IMG/VR virus record: IMGVR_UViG_3300013233_000202
Coordinates: 1 to 21,075 of that record
From: a virus
Strand: one strand, 5' to 3'
DNA: 21,075 nt
Part shown: positions 6,882-16,306 of the stretch, piece by piece
Position numbering within the stretch: position 1 is the stretch's first letter
Layout: each line of letters begins with the position of its first letter
The notes under the pieces: model-generated
Seen by the model: the letters and a program-made list of their open reading frames with translations, nothing else
Databases searched by the model: none
Told to the model about the DNA's origin: nothing
Made by a program: the position numbers and the translations under genes

Positions 6882-6950
6882 GAACTAAAATTTTCACCGA
6901 TTCGATAGCTGTTACAGATAAGTAACATGATGAATGATTCAAATTATCGA

Positions 6951-6980
6951 GTTTACAATATTGATGATACATGATAAATA
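6951..6980 (+). promoter_or_regulatory. T4-early-type promoter for the tmRNA gene
   Basis: -35 TTTACA at 6952-6957 within GTTTACA, 17-bp spacer, -10 TAAATA at 6975-6980 with extended -10 TGA (6972-6974). The predicted start near 6987 lies just upstream of the acceptor piece of the tmRNA. Upstream, 6882-6950 holds no gene; it contains a small hairpin, TGTTAC/GTAACA at 6910-6927, without a T-tract. Confidence 0.65.
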
Positions 6981-7048
6981 TGACTTGAAATTGATGAAAC
7001 AATTTGAAGATGGATCGGACCTGGGGGCGGTACCCAGCGACTCCACCA

Positions 7049-7153
7049 TCAGCAATCTCCACTGAACGGGCGCATGGTCTTAGTAGGTGCATTCTAGAAT
7101 AATAGTAAGTGATCATAACATTATTCTGGTACTGGTTCGAGATTGTTGATGAT
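7049..7153 (+). other. Intervening segment of the permuted tmRNA precursor
   Basis: This 105-nt segment between ACCA and the coding half should be removed on maturation. ATCAGCAATCTC (7048-7059) pairs with GAGATTGTTGAT (7139-7150) over 12 bp with one G-U, stacking on the acceptor stem, and AGAATAAT (7096-7103) pairs with ATTATTCT (7120-7127) inside it. The result is one long hairpin holding both ends of the acceptor stem together. Confidence 0.75.
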
Positions 7154-7234
7154 GGGGTCGAAATAGGATAGACGGACATTGGATGAACGTGGAGATTTTC
7201 GTTTGAATCGCGTTATAGATTCGAAAAAGTAAGT

Positions 7235-7273
7235 GCAAACACAAATAACGCACCTTTGAGAATGGCAGCCTAA
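7235..7273 (+). other. tmRNA tag reading frame
   Basis: Resume codon GCA at 7235, twelve codons ANTNNAPLRMAA and TAA at 7271-7273. The start parallels the usual ANDN/ANDE opening and the MAA end fits the hydrophobic-Ala-Ala degron read by ClpXP-type proteases (family knowledge). It follows the typical run of A before the resume site (GAAAAAGTAAGT). Confidence 0.8.
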
Positions 7274-7344
7274 GGCTTCTTCTCGACGGGTCGGGAGGAA
7301 CCTTGGAACAGAATCCTCTATTCTCACATAACAAGGAAATAAAA

Positions 7345-11254: not shown

Positions 11255-11287
11255 AAAGGGGTCTTCAGTTTGAAGGCCCTTTTTTTA
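11255..11287 (+). terminator. Intrinsic terminator after the DUF932 gene
   Basis: AAAGGG (11255-11260) with CCCTTT and TCTTC with GAAGG form a hairpin around loop AGTTT, interrupted by one unpaired G, followed by a seven-T run (11280-11286). Confidence 0.85.
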
Positions 11288-11293
11288 TAAATA
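11286..11293 (+). promoter_or_regulatory. T4 late promoter (TATAAATA)
   Basis: An exact TATAAATA, the complete -10 element recognised by the T4 late sigma gp55 with gp33/gp45. It begins at the last T of the terminator's T-tract. The transcript would start near 11300, ahead of the structural-type genes from 11332 to about 16735. By known T4 biology no -35 box is needed. Confidence 0.8.
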
Positions 11294-11331: not shown

Positions 11332-12483
11332 ATGAAAAAAACTCAATTAGACGAAGGCGTCCTTGGAGGGATTAAGATACTTGGTCGCGCCATCGCAAAA
11401 GACAGAGGAATTCGTACTATTTCAAAAATAGGCACCAAAGCCGTTTCTGGAGCCATGAACGGATCGTTGATCGGCGCCCCCGCTGGTTATGCTGCCCTAA
11501 AAACGGCTAAAACAGCTATGGATAACGTTAGATCTAGACCAAAAACTAAGTCTGTCGCAAAACCTGCGACGCCCGCAAAGATTAAATCTGGATCTTCGGT
11601 TCCGCCTAGGAAGAATTTCGGCGATCTCAGCGTTCCTGGAATAAAGAGGAAAATAGCAACAGCGAAAAGCACCGCGAGGACGATTGGCGTAAAGAAATAT
11701 AGTAATCAATTAAAAGCTCAAGGCAATCCCTATGTAAAAGAGGGAGTCATAGGAGTCCTTAACGGCGCTAGAAAAACTGTCGCTCCTCCAAGAGTAAGAC
11801 TAAAAACTAAAAAGATGATAATCAATAAAGAATCGTTGGATCTAGATGAGGGAATCTTGGGTGGAACGGTTAGAGCGCTCGGTAAATTAGCCCTAAGGAC
11901 AACGGCGAGAGCTGCGAAGTCTGGCGCCCTTGGCGTAGAAAAAAAGGTTTTGGGAGCAGGACGAGGCCTTGAGAAAAGACTGAAGACTGGGGTTCGGGCG
12001 ACGACGAATTCTTTATCTAAATCTAGAACCGCTGGCAGAATAGGTAATACTCTGTCCAAGGCGGCAGTCGTTGGGGCCGGGGCTGGCTCTGCGATAGCGG
12101 CCAGACGGAATATAGGAACGACTCCAGTGAGAGAGAGTTCAGATATCGAAGAAGCTCTGAGTATCACTCAGAGACGAAAGCGGATGATGATACTAAAGCG
12201 CAATAAATCCAAATTGGCTATTGGTAGACTAAAAGCTTCACACCGGGTCGCGACTATGGAAGTTCTGAAAAAGAGAGCCCGTAGACAGGCTAGGCGCGAA
12301 ATGGCTAAAAAGCTATCAAAAGGCGTCGATAAGTCCGAGCTTGGTGCAGAAAGAAAGTCTCAAATCGAGAAGAGAATGGCTACTCCTGCGATAGCGTCTC
12401 GCATTAATCGCTTATCGAAGCGTCTCATAAAGAAAGCCAGAGAAAGAGAATTGTCCAAGAAACGGGGATCTGATAATAGCTAA
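11332..12483 (+). CDS. Basic head-associated protein with repeated prohead-protease sites
   Basis: A 383-residue, highly basic, Ala/Gly/Lys/Arg-rich protein with no Cys. Three short repeats share (D/K)EG(V/I)(L/I)G: LDEGVLGG (6-13), VKEGVIGV (135-142) and LDEGILGG (171-178); with IEEA (272-275) these place Glu8, Glu137, Glu173 and Glu274 in or near the (I/L)xE cleavage pattern of the T4 prohead protease gp21. The last 110 residues (ALSITQRRKRMM onwards) form a charged helical domain, similar to one I recall in head-region proteins of other T4-like phages. It is first in the late transcript. DNA binding inside the capsid or scaffold function fits the charge and context; this is inference. Its stop overlaps the next start (TAATG). 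Confidence 0.75.
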   Translation: MKKTQLDEGVLGGIKILGRAIAKDRGIRTISKIGTKAVSGAMNGSLIGAPAGYAALKTAKTAMDNVRSRPKTKSVAKPATPAKIKSGSSVPPRKNFGDLSVPGIKRKIATAKSTARTIGVKKYSNQLKAQGNPYVKEGVIGVLNGARKTVAPPRVRLKTKKMIINKESLDLDEGILGGTVRALGKLALRTTARAAKSGALGVEKKVLGAGRGLEKRLKTGVRATTNSLSKSRTAGRIGNTLSKAAVVGAGAGSAIAARRNIGTTPVRESSDIEEALSITQRRKRMMILKRNKSKLAIGRLKASHRVATMEVLKKRARRQARREMAKKLSKGVDKSELGAERKSQIEKRMATPAIASRINRLSKRLIKKARERELSKKRGSDNS

Positions 12484-13229
12484 TGTCTCTTCTGAGCTTC
12501 AAAAAATTTATAATATCTGAGAATAAGACAATGACGTTTTGTGTGTTAGAGTCTGCTATTCCCTCTATGATTGATAAACTTATGATCGAGAAGACCTCGG
12601 TTTTGTCTGGAGGCAATGAGTTTAGAATATTGGTTAGTACATCACCAGAAGAGAATTATGTCCTCAGCTTGCACGAAAGATTGAAATACACGAGAAAAAT
12701 GTTTCCAAAATTCGGCAGGCAGACATCGATGACGGAAAATTCTAGTATTTCGTCCGTCATTGAAGATATGAGAAATTCTGGATACAAAAAGATAAATTTG
12801 GTATGTTCAACCGATCAGTCTGAATCTTATTCTCGCCTGTTAGGCGAGGATATCAGCATTTTTAGCGTCCGTCAACCGCAGGTGGATTTCTCTTCGATGA
12901 TAGAGACTGACAATTTTTTAGAATTTTCTCAGTACATACCGGAAATATCAAATTACGAAACAAAACGATTATTCGGCGTAATTAAGGAAAAGACCGGCGT
13001 TCGTTTCAAACGGTCCCGAAACGCCTTCTTTCCTAAAAATTCCGTAAGAGAAGATTATTTAAGAGGCAAACTCTTTACCGTTGGCGATATTGTTGTCGAC
13101 AAACATAATAACAAACTGACGATATCCAGACTATGCTCTAATTACGTTATAGCGGAATCAGAAAACAACAAAAATAAACGATATTGGTTGAAAGACCTAA
13201 CAAAGATAGAGGAAAATCATGGCCGATAA
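12483..13229 (+). CDS. Degenerate nucleotidyltransferase-like protein with capsid-targeting-like N-terminus
   Basis: A 248-residue protein. The block FRILVSTSPEEN ... LHERLKYTRKMFPKF (about 47-77) followed by SGYKKINLVCSTDQSESYSRLL matches the layout of adenylyl/cytidylyl-transferase-like proteins seen in T4-like cyanophages, where the N-terminus carries an HxGH motif. Here the equivalent segment (TFCVLESAIPSM, 18-29) has no HxGH, so catalysis is probably lost. The C-terminal part (KLFTVGDIVVDKHN ... YWLKDL) looks like a small beta domain with KOW/SH3 character. The first 13 residues, ending FIISE, resemble T4 internal-protein targeting peptides (MKTYQEFIAE), with I-S-E as possible cleavage site. 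Packaging into the head is inferred, not shown. Confidence 0.65.
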   Translation: MSLLSFKKFIISENKTMTFCVLESAIPSMIDKLMIEKTSVLSGGNEFRILVSTSPEENYVLSLHERLKYTRKMFPKFGRQTSMTENSSISSVIEDMRNSGYKKINLVCSTDQSESYSRLLGEDISIFSVRQPQVDFSSMIETDNFLEFSQYIPEISNYETKRLFGVIKEKTGVRFKRSRNAFFPKNSVREDYLRGKLFTVGDIVVDKHNNKLTISRLCSNYVIAESENNKNKRYWLKDLTKIEENHGR

Positions 13230-13482
13230 ATTTCAAAAGTTTTATCCACATTTAGAATCGCCAGCAGAAAATGGATATTCAATTGTACCTTCGAACGTTT
13301 CGGATTTACCTTATATAACCAGAAAATTGTACGTAGGTGGTACTGGTAATATCGTTCTGAATACTTCTGGTGGAGACAATATAACCCTAGTTGGGGTACA
13401 AATTGGGACGGTTCTAAATATTCGAGCGTCCAGGGTTTTCTCTACCGGAACGACGGCTACTAATATCGTAGGCCTGTACTAA
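13219..13482 (+). CDS. Spike base protein-like (RCAP_Rcc01079 type)
   Basis: An 87-residue protein: MADKFQKFYPHLESPAENGY, then SDLPYITRKLYVGGTGNI, and the C-terminal RVFSTGTTATNIVGLY. This matches small proteins that NCBI names spike base protein after the Rhodobacter capsulatus gene-transfer-agent head-spike component, also present in many phages. The family is a beta-rich virion component at capsid vertices or surfaces. The ATG has GAGGA upstream and overlaps the preceding gene by 11 bp; its stop overlaps the next start (TAATG). Presence in the late block behind TATAAATA supports a structural role. The name is from memory of the family, so function on this capsid is inferred. Confidence 0.75.
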   Translation: MADKFQKFYPHLESPAENGYSIVPSNVSDLPYITRKLYVGGTGNIVLNTSGGDNITLVGVQIGTVLNIRASRVFSTGTTATNIVGLY

Positions 13483-14864
13483 TGTCGGTAGAAACTAATT
13501 CTGCTGATAAAAAAGCGATATATTACACCGATAAGAACGGTAAAAAACGTGTGAGGATGATATCGGTTGGAGACACTTCTGATATTCTCGACAAAAATAC
13601 GTATGCTGCAGAATCAGTAATACAAGAACTGTCCTTAAAAAGGCTGAAATCATATCACAGACGGGCAAAAATAGATAATAAATTTTACACGAATACTTTG
13701 CAGTACGAATATGATAAGATGACTGGTAAGAAACCCGGAAAAAGTTATATGAGTCAGAACAAAGCAGATTTTATAATCGCCACAATCAAAAAACGTAGGG
13801 CAGGCCTGAAATTATCAGGACCCAAAATAGCAAAAAAGCTTGGAGAACCAAAAATGGAAAACACTGAACACAATCGAATGGAATCACTTGGTCTTCTGAG
13901 CGAATCTGCGTATACTGGAAAGCATCCAGGAAGAATTAGTAGCGTATCGGGAATGGGCCGAGGAGTTGTTCTAGCGGTAACAAACGGTGGAACTAAGCAT
14001 CTCATCCGAGCCCGCGATACTGGAGGAAAGATGCCACGAACCGGAAACCATATCGACGATTATAAAAGCGAACCTTTTAAACCCAACAAGATTAAACTCA
14101 AGGGATTTTCTGGTAACGGCGACTCCGTTCCGATGTCCGCATCAAATAGCAAACACCTTACGTCGGAAGACACTGAATATTACAACGATAGGGTAAATCT
14201 TAACCTTCATAAGGAATTATACGAAAAGGTTAAAGAATTTAATCCATCTAATCCTAACATGCCGAGGAATAATACCCGAGAAATCCGAGATTCGACTCCG
14301 CAGGATAAGATTGATGTCCATATGTCCAAGTCGACGAAGGATTGGATGAACGCTGCTGGCGGAATACAGAATACCATAAACCCAGTCGCTGATATTTATG
14401 CAGCAATGCGACTGAATCAAAAGAGTTATGATAATCCGGCCAAAGCTGCTCCTATGCGTCCCGGGGATAACCCAAATGGCGACAAGAAAATCGTAGGAAA
14501 AAACAACGTCGTATCCGATTCGGTGCAAATAGAGATTGATGGAGAAATTCTGACCGAGGGAACTAACAATTTCCATCATGCGATTTCACGATACCACTCT
14601 GAGAGGGCTAATGAGTTGAAATCATCCCTAGAAAATGGATTCGCCAACCAGAAGTATAACGCTCTTAAGAGTAATGCTCTCCTAAAACACATTGAAGCCG
14701 CCGGAGCGCACAGGACTGCAGCCTCAAATTATAATTCAGCTAAAAATAGGTCAAACTCTTCATGGTCGAATTCTGCGCATGATTTCTCAAAGGACGCTAA
14801 TAACGCCGACACCGAATTGAGTCGGGCGCTCCGAGAAGATTCGCGAGTAGTTGGCAATAGATAA
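13482..14864 (+). CDS. Large hypothetical late protein
   Basis: A 460-residue polar protein, very rich in Asn, Ser, Lys and His, without TM segments or Cys, so probably a virion protein with extended regions. N-terminal 1-120 is basic and helical (YYTDKNGKKRVRMISVG; KSYHRRAKIDNKFY). Residues 138-142 (LLSES) and 357-360 (LTEG) match the (I/L)xE prohead-protease pattern. The segment 143-215 is Gly-rich (GKHPGRISSVSGMGRGVVLAVTN). The C-terminal third is Ala/Asn/Ser-rich with helical heptads (NAADTELSRAL-like). It starts on the stop of the spike base gene. I do not recognise a family; a head or tail structural role rests on context only. Confidence 0.6.
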   Translation: MSVETNSADKKAIYYTDKNGKKRVRMISVGDTSDILDKNTYAAESVIQELSLKRLKSYHRRAKIDNKFYTNTLQYEYDKMTGKKPGKSYMSQNKADFIIATIKKRRAGLKLSGPKIAKKLGEPKMENTEHNRMESLGLLSESAYTGKHPGRISSVSGMGRGVVLAVTNGGTKHLIRARDTGGKMPRTGNHIDDYKSEPFKPNKIKLKGFSGNGDSVPMSASNSKHLTSEDTEYYNDRVNLNLHKELYEKVKEFNPSNPNMPRNNTREIRDSTPQDKIDVHMSKSTKDWMNAAGGIQNTINPVADIYAAMRLNQKSYDNPAKAAPMRPGDNPNGDKKIVGKNNVVSDSVQIEIDGEILTEGTNNFHHAISRYHSERANELKSSLENGFANQKYNALKSNALLKHIEAAGAHRTAASNYNSAKNRSNSSWSNSAHDFSKDANNADTELSRALREDSRVVGNR

Positions 14865-14877
14865 GGAATAAAAGAAA

Positions 14878-15168
14878 ATGATCAAACCACCAAATTGGGC
14901 AAAAGACGCAATTCCTAAAAACAATGGATGGTTCAGTCCATCCGGAGAATTTTTAAAGTCGCAGAAATTGTCAACAGAACAAATAGACAAATTTTATTCA
15001 AAAAACGCTTCGGCGCCCTCAGTTCTTGTAGAATCTCCAATAAATAAACCTATAGAAGATATGACTAAAAAAGAGCTAGAGGAAACGGCTAGGCACTATG
15101 GAATTGAACTTGACCGGCGGTATAAGAAAAAAACTCTTATCGAAAAACTTGGAACTGTATTTTCGTAG
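14878..15168 (+). CDS. Small protein with HeH/SAP-like C-terminal domain
   Basis: A 96-residue protein in two parts. Residues 1-40 (KPPNWAKDAIPKNNGWFSPSGEFLKSQKLS) form a Trp/Pro-rich conserved opening that I associate with T4-like phage head-region proteins. Residues 60-93 (EDMTKKELEETARHYGIELDRRYKKKTLIEKL) have the helix-extended-loop-helix pattern shared by HeH, LEM, SAP and Rho-N-like domains, which usually bind nucleic acid. ATG follows AAGGAATAAAAGAAA. In this late block, binding packaged DNA or aiding head assembly is plausible. Function is not established. Confidence 0.7.
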   Translation: MIKPPNWAKDAIPKNNGWFSPSGEFLKSQKLSTEQIDKFYSKNASAPSVLVESPINKPIEDMTKKELEETARHYGIELDRRYKKKTLIEKLGTVFS

Positions 15169-15176
15169 GTTGACCT

Positions 15177-15539
15177 ATGAATTATGATTTGAATGATGGC
15201 AACATAAAAATATTTGCTGCCCAAAACTACTATAATCCGATTGGGGTCGACGCAGACGAATTTAAAGAGGATCTGCACCGACTCCGATACATAAAAAGAC
15301 AGGTGAATAAATTCATGGTCACGGGAAATATTTCTGATAGACTTATTCTGAATCATCTGATCGTGTTTTTTAACGTTTTTGGAATTCCAGCAGCGTTGAA
15401 AATGCTAGAATTTAGTTTTGATTTGTCTCAATGGCGGGTTTTAAAACCTTTCTTGATTTTTTTGCGATATATAAGAAATGATCAGTATACTGGTATCACC
15501 ATGAATGACCACGTAATAAAAAAATTAAGGGAAATCTAA
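15177..15539 (+). CDS. Conserved T4-like phage hypothetical protein
   Basis: A 120-residue soluble, mostly helical protein. The opening LNDGNIKIFAAQNYYNP, the middle LHRLRYIKRQVNKFMVTG, and LILNHLIVFFNVFGIPAALKML are patterns I recall from a conserved protein found beside structural genes in T4-like cyanophages and relatives. The hydrophobic stretch at about 55-80 is amphipathic rather than a clean TM helix. The gene starts 8 nt after its neighbour's stop with an AGG site, and its TAA overlaps the following ATG (TAATG). No function is known to me. Confidence 0.8.
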   Translation: MNYDLNDGNIKIFAAQNYYNPIGVDADEFKEDLHRLRYIKRQVNKFMVTGNISDRLILNHLIVFFNVFGIPAALKMLEFSFDLSQWRVLKPFLIFLRYIRNDQYTGITMNDHVIKKLREI

Positions 15540-15949
15540 TGAAAACGTTTGCAATTTTAAGAGAGTCGTTGCTCGAAGCCGCCGAATCTGGCAATCATAA
15601 AAAGTGGCACGAGACAGGCGCGGCAGCGCTCGCTGATACACTTGGATCGTCAAAACCCCACACTCTGAAAAAGGATGTTGTCATAAAAGATCCAGTGAGC
15701 GCACACCGGCACCACTTTTCAAGCGGCGAACCGATGCTAAAATATCACGACCGAGGTACTGGAGAGAGTTTGACCGGAGTTAAGCTAAAAAAAGGAACTA
15801 AGGTCGTATACGATCCTGAAGAAGGACACTCTTATTCCCATTCTAAACACCATGGAAGTATAAGAATCGATTCAGAAACTACGAATAGCTTGAAAGATCA
15901 TCTGTTAAATAGGTCTGATCGAGATCAGAACCAGAAAGACTGGGGATAG
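15539..15949 (+). CDS. Candidate injected internal head protein
   Basis: A 136-residue hydrophilic His/Ser/Lys-rich protein. The start MKTFAILRESLLEA strongly resembles T4 internal head protein leaders (MKTYQEFIAEA): a short amphipathic peptide followed by (L)xE sites, here LRE|S at Glu9 and LLE|A at Glu13. In T4 such capsid-targeting peptides direct proteins into the prohead and are cut off by gp21, and the mature proteins are injected with the DNA. The remaining part has clustered His (HRHHF, HSYSHSKHHG) and no recognised fold. The middle, YDPEEGHSYSHSKHHG, follows a lysine-rich strand (GVKLKKGTKVVYDPE) that resembles ADP-ribosyltransferase-like or beta-barrel loops only vaguely. The targeting claim is inference from the N-terminus. 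Confidence 0.6.
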   Translation: MKTFAILRESLLEAAESGNHKKWHETGAAALADTLGSSKPHTLKKDVVIKDPVSAHRHHFSSGEPMLKYHDRGTGESLTGVKLKKGTKVVYDPEEGHSYSHSKHHGSIRIDSETTNSLKDHLLNRSDRDQNQKDWG

Positions 15950-15955
15950 TTATTC

Positions 15956-16306
15956 ATGTCTGGAATTTCTAGGGTAGCAGATTTTGCCTACACCATACGA
16001 TTTCTAAAACTGCTTGTTACGCCTTTCGATAAGACTGGAGCCTACAAGGCCGGAATAATCGATGACACGGGAAAAAGAATCAAAACAAAAAGAGTCGTTT
16101 CTCCAGAGGACAAGTCGGTTTACACAAAATTCCATGTTTTGGTTTTCAATCTAAAAAAATTAATGGGCAAAATTCCAGGCGGGAAGACTCGCCTCGCGTC
16201 TTACGCCGCAGCGCTTCTTCTTTTGAAGGAACACGGATATATTTCGGATAACGGAATTTTATTGGCCGAAACATGGGCTAAAAAATACAGCAATAAGATT
16301 GTATGA
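15956..16306 (+). CDS. Conserved phage hypothetical protein
   Basis: A 116-residue basic protein: SGISRVADFAYTIRFLKLLVTPFDKTGAYKAGIID, then TKFHVLVFNLKKLMGKIPGGKTRLASYAAALLLLKEH. I recognise this pattern from conserved late-region proteins of several T4-like phages and it is likely structural or assembly-related, but I know of no assigned function. The PGGK element resembles but is not a Walker A motif (no GxxxxGK[ST] spacing). The ribosome site GGGGATAG precedes ATG by a few bases. No TM segment is convincing; the two hydrophobic runs are short. Confidence 0.8.
   Translation: MSGISRVADFAYTIRFLKLLVTPFDKTGAYKAGIIDDTGKRIKTKRVVSPEDKSVYTKFHVLVFNLKKLMGKIPGGKTRLASYAAALLLLKEHGYISDNGILLAETWAKKYSNKIV

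Follow-up and report, generated by a model that had tools for sequence, protein, structure and literature searches.

The subject of this analysis is a 21,075-base stretch of viral DNA (here termed the window), which is the whole of IMG/VR virus record IMGVR_UViG_3300013233_000202, and within it a cluster of five open reading frames (ORFs) named by their start positions (ORFs 11332, 12483, 13482, 14878 and 15539). In a phage of the T4 superfamily, the cluster is probably a late locus for leader-tagged internal proteins (head cargo), with its products probably processed by a gp21-type protease. Its features are as follows, a slash marking each predicted cut:

11286 to 11293, + strand: putative T4-type late promoter -10 element TATAAATA, 46 bases upstream of ORF 11332 and directly preceded by a GC-rich hairpin and its T run.
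11332 to 12483, + strand: basic polyprotein of 383 amino acids (aa), isoelectric point (pI) 11.7, charge +68, with junction-like sites E8, E173, E274 and VKE137/G.
11332 to 11355, + strand: short putative leader MKKTQLDE/G of ORF 11332, weak, with both aromatic positions missing.
12145 to 12153, + strand: IEE274 junction site immediately ahead of the basic domain, from conserved junction contexts.
12154 to 12480, + strand: conserved Lys/Arg-rich domain with four predicted helices (predicted local distance difference test score, pLDDT, 86.7), from family comparison and model.
12483 to 13229, + strand: degenerate protein resembling cytidylyltransferase/nicotinamide mononucleotide adenylyltransferase (NMNAT), with a C-terminal small beta domain, from profile, alignment and model, and with virion-detected homologues.
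12483 to 12521, + strand: leader MSLLSFKKFIISE/N of ORF 12483, with F6 invariant in an alignment that includes the leaders of 13 relatives.
13482 to 14864, + strand: 460-aa protein with sites LSE141/S and LTE359/G, from the site count.
13500 to 13592, + strand: SADKKA...GK..VRM module at the start of ORF 13482, common to cargo polyproteins.
14878 to 15168, + strand: small two-part protein with site LVE52/SP between its halves, the C-terminal half HeH/SAP-like, from family comparison.
15539 to 15949, + strand: His-rich 136-aa protein with double site MKTFAILRE/SLLE/A (E9, E13), from the site count.

Candidate cleavage sites were counted with the pattern [LI]xE[GASN] in the 35 ORFs of the window, with the expectation obtained by a composition shuffle of each protein. 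The five ORFs of the cluster were found to hold 11 sites against a shuffle mean of 3.2 (P about 0.0007), while the remaining 30 ORFs held 15 against a mean of 12.3 (P 0.26), the excess being confined to the cluster. A site ending by residue 13 was identified in four of the 35 ORFs where 0.8 were expected (P 0.006). Three of these are in the cluster, with (I/L)xE at the leader ends of ORF 11332 (LDE/G), ORF 12483 (ISE/N) and ORF 15539 (LRE/S or LLE/A), and the fourth, ORF 2676, lies outside it. The first-pass annotation had described four proteins with such sites, three of them with a site within the first 13 residues; the presence of the sites and the three N-terminal positions were reproduced, but the proteins carrying sites number five. 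Use of every (I/L)xE in the cluster was rejected, as two of the three sites of ORF 12483 (E225 and E244, the other being E13) fall within its C-terminal domain or at the end of that domain.

When the ORF 12483 family was compared at 44 distinct N-termini (from fetched loci, the window included), 43 were found to retain the leader as F-x-x-[FY] followed by hydrophobic residues and E, and its F was invariant in an alignment of 14 sequences. The N-termini of S-SM2, S-RIM2 and S-SCSM2R (MKSFFQFLSE, MKKFSAFLTE and MKSFSKFFSE) are followed by linkers of very different lengths, and in S-CREM2 (leader MKNFSSFLTE in gp154) and S-SZBM1 linkers also stand ahead of the enzyme core, the leader being kept whatever the linker length. 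The copy of RaK2, the sole one read from a jumbo phage, has no leader. Because linkers separate leader from core and the RaK2 copy does without it, the leader, as judged from these comparisons, stands outside the enzyme fold. The proposed resemblance to T4 internal-protein leaders holds by homology for ORF 12483 and partially for ORF 15539 (F4, L7, E9), and is weak for ORF 11332. The N-terminus of ORF 15539 is patterned like those of C48C1 (MKKFTEIRE/A) and Melnitz-1 (MKKFSEIIE/A), and other short leaders occur in relatives, such as KSFSE/LSMK in locus L004. In C48C1 CDS0089 (L001:23515), which is annotated as starting at MNPPTIGH, the upstream frame was observed to be open through a leader-like NFSQYLLEEE, and the deposited start is probably too late.

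ORF 12483 was assigned by descent to PHROG 395, the phage cytidyltransferase family, on a profile match (E 1.5e-13) and its fold, and this family gave matches in 293 phage records (tblastn). Nucleotidyltransferase folds led the Foldseek list obtained with its model, including nicotinamide mononucleotide (NMN) and phosphopantetheine adenylyltransferases; a profile search of PDB sequences with the nucleotidyltransferase alignment reached only E 0.24 at best. In the 14-sequence alignment, ORF 12483 was found to have IPSMIDK in place of the PPTTGHE stretch and to have lost the catalytic motifs HxGH and SASxxR. The protein therefore lacks the motifs of an active cytidylyltransferase or NMN adenylyltransferase, which bears out its earlier description as a degenerate nucleotidyltransferase, and the motifs are partly lost also in the L095 family member. 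Because the catalytic motifs are gone, it is probably a binding or structural protein, and its degeneracy argues for a structural role over an injected catalytic one.

Homologues of ORF 12483 have been detected in virions. According to the consulted parts of the papers cited here and below, mass spectrometry identified 52 virion proteins in S-CREM2, including the ORF154 cytidylyltransferase and its neighbours 155, 156 and 160 (PMC10665884), and 30 in S-SZBM1, including the cytidylyltransferase S-SZBM1_140, the adjacent _139 and the neighbouring _136 (PMC9146016), while the NMNAT ORF91 of S-SCSM1 was found in the virion in a paper that cites a report for S-CBWM1 as well (PMC9602691). These could be ordinary genes of intracellular nucleotide or nicotinamide adenine dinucleotide metabolism, detected through lysate carry-over and bearing sites by chance; uvsX, gp41, thyX and ribonucleotide reductase genes are present in the neighbourhood, and the S-CREM2 authors allow for enzymes as contaminants or carry-over (PMC10665884), as do the S-SCSM1 authors for carry-over (PMC9602691). 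However, detection was repeated in several cyanophages, the leader is conserved in the family, sites are in excess in the cluster, and the catalytic motifs are lost in the window copy and partly in L095. This metabolic explanation is regarded as highly improbable.

The relation between leader and virion was examined with a motif modelled on T4 data ([FYL]..[FYM][ILVMF].E, sought in residues 1 to 25); in the IPIII leader of T4, residues 4 and 7 matter for targeting and residues 8 and 10 for cutting (PMC9026906). In S-CREM2 the motif was found in 7 of 52 virion proteins against 3 of 167 others (p=0.002), a result that is not blind, as the motif was settled after the S-CREM2 proteins had been seen; the carriers include SAM hydrolase, Cas9-annotated and kinase virion proteins. 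C48C1 carried it in 7 of 207 proteins, with 1.6 expected from internal density. In S-CRM01, which was not used to set the motif, it was identified in 5 of the 12 coding sequences (CDS) g132-g121, between the annotated terminator and gp61, and in none of the nine other CDS tested (21 of the 23 CDS of a locus picked because of its homologue of the S-CREM2 leader-bearing kinase). Calibration on T4 returned 3 of 64 CDS tested, ipII and ipIII among them, with ipI missed. A second, looser pattern was dropped because it also matches clear non-cargo genes. Capsid targeting, which had been proposed for the cluster, is well supported in relatives by leader conservation and by family members in purified virions, but not by the virion test in S-SZBM1 (below), and on this analysis it is likely for the cluster proteins of the window phage.

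Some further features of these relatives were observed. The S-CREM2 genes gp6 and gp12-gp15 (L084:3837-13331) form a second group encoding leader-bearing virion proteins (the SAM hydrolase, Cas9-annotated protein and kinase), and the S-CRM01 homologue of the kinase lies inside the gp41-gp61 interval, near a cytidylyltransferase-like gene. In S-SZBM1, two of the other leader matches (191 and 192) are among head genes, and the virion-detected S-SZBM1_139 (L091:28988-30361), beside the cytidylyltransferase, has long Lys/Ala-rich repeats and a histone H1-like composition.

ORF 11332 is the very basic, Lys/Arg-rich protein of the first-pass annotation, and an LDE/G(V/I)LGG segment occurs twice within it. 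Its C-terminal 110 residues, the basic domain, were found to have 249 relatives in viral_contigs, 80 of which were kept for family analysis; no relatives of the whole ORF were confirmed in viral_contigs. The start of the domain is marked by E, then A/V/S, then L/M in 46 of 46 distinct contexts, with Melnitz-1 as an exception in junction spacing (LIE/RKAV). C48C1 (MLSFKQFVSE/V) and Melnitz-1 have a gene for the domain alone, preceded by a leader; in the window, phiM12 gp458 and the majority of cyanophage-like loci it belongs to a polyprotein. Its matches in the viral library include phiM12 gp458 and several phage polyproteins named cytidyltransferase-like, which links window genes 11332 and 12483. 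The C-terminal domain of phiM12 gp458 is a separate gene in L095, with leader MITFKEYLEE. Against PDB, the basic domain gave no Foldseek hit at E 0.001, a best sequence hit of E 0.78 and VIA Z of at most 4.2. S-CREM2 gp156 was rejected as a basic-domain homologue, being a different nucleotidyltransferase-type protein.

The polyproteins may be assembled from exchangeable modules with boundaries near E[AS]. In cyanophage-like relatives, a SADRKP module and varying arrays of short modules were found upstream of the basic domain, and SAD[KR][KR][PA] was identified in 38 ORFs (36 from IMG/VR, C48C1 CDS0095 and window ORF 13482). Across IMG/VR loci L004-L073 the order in which the short modules are combined was observed to change, with a constant N-terminal part ahead of them and the basic domain behind. 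Among 43 polyproteins, shared blocks were found to end within 4 residues of E[AS] at 64.5% of 110 unique positions and to start within 4 residues of it at 36% of 72 positions, against 14.8% at random, these positions not being independent of each other. In the family of ORF 14878, (I/L)xE[AS]P lies between the halves in 13 of 17 members. Residues 55-91 of ORF 14878 gave a weak PHROG match to "prohead protease inhibitor", and ORF 15539 is His-rich as described (His 8.8%).

These junctions bear on whether the proteins are cut. The proteins could be leader-tagged and left uncut, with an N-terminal helix docking on scaffold or capsid and xxE reflecting helix grammar or a domain start. At the 46 basic-domain junctions, P3 (the third residue before the cut) is mostly V or T rather than I or L (V 30, T 7, I 4, Q 2, Y 2, L 1), and the predicted fold would allow a helix to begin at the E/A-L junction. 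Set against this are the module ends and starts near E[AS]; the 14878 family, in which LxE/(A/S)P stands between conserved halves and P3 is always I or L; and the leader site of ORF 12483, which is in a low-confidence linker (the model has a helix at residues 4-10, pLDDT below 50 at residues 9-12 beside the predicted cut, then the core). The uncut alternative is considered unlikely, and cutting by a gp21-type protease is probable from the conserved junctions. The products could also be core or scaffold proteins for prohead assembly, like T4 gp67/gp68, which are degraded and have no cargo role after maturation. This would fit the several sites per protein, the many cuts made in T4 core proteins (PMC5694885) and the weak inhibitor-family match of ORF 14878. 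It is quite unlikely, as homologues of ORF 12483 are present in finished virions, as are the neighbours S-CREM2 gp155, gp156 and gp160 and S-SZBM1_139 and _136.

The label "late" had been given to the cluster without support; it now has support from a sequence match to TATAAATA, the T4-type late-promoter consensus. This is the single exact match on either strand of the window and, because about 1.4 matches are expected by chance, it is its placement and not its presence that is evidence. The hairpin ahead of it was read from the sequence and was not listed by the terminator scan. Exact TATAAATA was also found ahead of cargo genes in L095 (-87), Melnitz-1 (-47), S-CREM2 gp154 (-28) and C48C1 CDS0086 (-10), and S-CRM01 has only the relaxed form NATAAATA (-24); the comparison covered these five and not S-SZBM1, HTVC008M or phiM12. 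The related phage C48C1 was found to encode a gp21-type protease (CDS0013; Peptidase_S77, E 1.9e-39), and LTE is present near the N-terminus of the major capsid proteins (MCPs) of S-CREM2, S-SZBM1 and C48C1. A separate observation is that an N-terminal stretch of S-CREM2 gp160 (L085:28342-29235), which is virion-detected, and of S-CRM01 g121 (L103:12348-12542) resembles the residues after the MCP LTE (GFTGAAAPEGPVAGYDP vs GFTGAAAPGGPNAGFDP) and may be a capsid-arm mimic.

Several results count against a leader-tagged, gp21-processed cargo locus, besides the carry-over allowed by the authors above. A gp21-like protease, expected by the first-pass annotation elsewhere in the genome, gave no match in the 21-kb window fragment. 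The strict leader motif was found in none of the 35 window ORFs, the leader of ORF 12483 being one residue longer and that of ORF 11332 lacking aromatics. The S-SZBM1 leader test was negative (1 of 30 virion proteins vs 3 of 188 others, p=0.45), and the interval, tested against the rest, showed no significant excess in S-CREM2 (p=0.32) or S-SZBM1 (p=0.19) and a weak one in C48C1 (p=0.02). The HTVC008M member is the leaderless exception among the 44 N-termini, I or L occupies P3 in just 5 of the 46 basic-domain junctions, and no full-length homologue of ORF 13482 and no homologue of ORF 15539 was found in phages or viral_contigs.

Under the cargo-locus explanation, which we favour, a gp55-type late promoter at 11286 would switch the cluster on, and ORFs 12483, 15539 and probably 11332 would begin with leaders for capsid targeting of the kind seen in T4 IPI-IPIII. 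Through these leaders the proteins may attach to the scaffold core and so be incorporated into the prohead. There a gp21-type protease, its gene lying in another part of the genome, would cut after (I/L/V)xE; this would take off the leaders and divide the products of ORFs 11332 and 14878 where their domains join. Once released, the Lys/Arg-rich domain of ORF 11332, for which we infer DNA binding, would remain on the packaged DNA, its simplest role being that of a counter-ion or of an internal protein that binds DNA. It may, speculatively, be ejected with the DNA; injection of the cluster proteins into the host is plausible only.

The window locus resembles T4 IPI, IPII and IPIII in its putative short N-terminal leaders (the T4 form, MKTYQEFIAE in ipII and ipIII, has aromatic residues 4 and 7 and E10), in the predicted E/A cut, in basic mature proteins, in several unrelated proteins sharing one leader and in probable late expression. 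Unlike the T4 system, its cargo includes a pseudo-enzyme and multi-domain polyproteins, its mature proteins were not found to match those of T4, and genes of this type lie between gp41 and gp61/ribonucleotide reductase, not near gene e. S-CREM2 ORF154, S-SZBM1_140 and S-SCSM1 ORF91 share family PHROG 395 with ORF 12483, and the first two, the sequences compared, also share the conserved leader, whereas the window copy is without HxGH and SASxxR. Sinorhizobium phage phiM12 gp458 (PHROG 23027) likewise has a basic domain after LGE/A and a degenerate nucleotidyltransferase-like part, but fused in one 602-aa protein where the window has adjacent genes. The ejection proteins of phiKZ and SPN3US are similar in that a relative of gp21 removes their propeptides by cleavage after E, and in the large internal protein load, and differ in that the propeptides are mostly >100 residues (PMC5694885).

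The window ORFs are nearly all on the + strand. By reading of ORF sequences, uvsX (1622), a gp41-type helicase (2992), thyX (4650) and ribonucleotide reductase (18230) were identified. Megablast of the whole window against phages found no close phage; protein searches pointed to T4-superfamily phages (C48C1, HTVC008M, phiM12 and Synechococcus phages). The cargo cluster sits in an interval common to the window phage and its relatives, with two markers:

15177 to 15539, + strand: DUF7207/PHROG 407 protein, without leader.
15956 to 16306, + strand: PHROG 18642/2086 protein, with a similar protein after DUF7207 in L095 and HTVC008M.

An 87-aa ORF within the cluster (13219-13482) was observed to match a PHROG tail fiber family (phrog_12296, E 1.7e-24) and has neither leader nor site. 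At 6934-7322 lies a permuted, alphaproteobacterial-type transfer-messenger RNA (Rfam RF01849, 105.5 bits; predicted tag ANTNNAPLRMAA), which suggests an alphaproteobacterial host.

Enzymes (NMNAT, kinases, SAM hydrolase) recur in cyanophage virions, where contamination was not excluded by the authors, and the consulted parts of the S-CREM2, S-SZBM1 and S-SCSM1 papers do not link them to a leader (PMC10665884, PMC9146016, PMC9602691). A targeting leader has been proposed, in a T4 review, as a route by which T4-like phages load various proteins (PMC9026906). No published link of such a leader to marine T4-like phages was found in a literature search that left subscription papers mostly outside. 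A conserved T4-like leader would provide a simple loading mechanism for the cyanophage virion enzymes. More tentatively, and with less confidence than in the locus itself, leaders of the T4 kind and E/A or E/S junctions may define a dedicated late head-loading locus common to marine T4-like phages, in which any domain becomes virion cargo by gaining a leader or by insertion into a polyprotein. Modules would be shuffled as cassettes, flanked by a leader and a basic DNA-binding domain that both stay constant, each phage would have its own delivered set, and some former enzymes would be kept only for packaging or binding. The swapped modules suggest a fast-evolving internal-protein set, with a parallel in the internal-protein genes of T4 relatives, which are variable. 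The leader may allow virion cargo, with the proteins that are delivered as infection begins, to be predicted from sequence in abundant ocean phages, and the locus may be a source of leaders for loading foreign proteins. Head-loading tags, known from phage T4, appear to be common among its ocean relatives and to be far more elaborate there.

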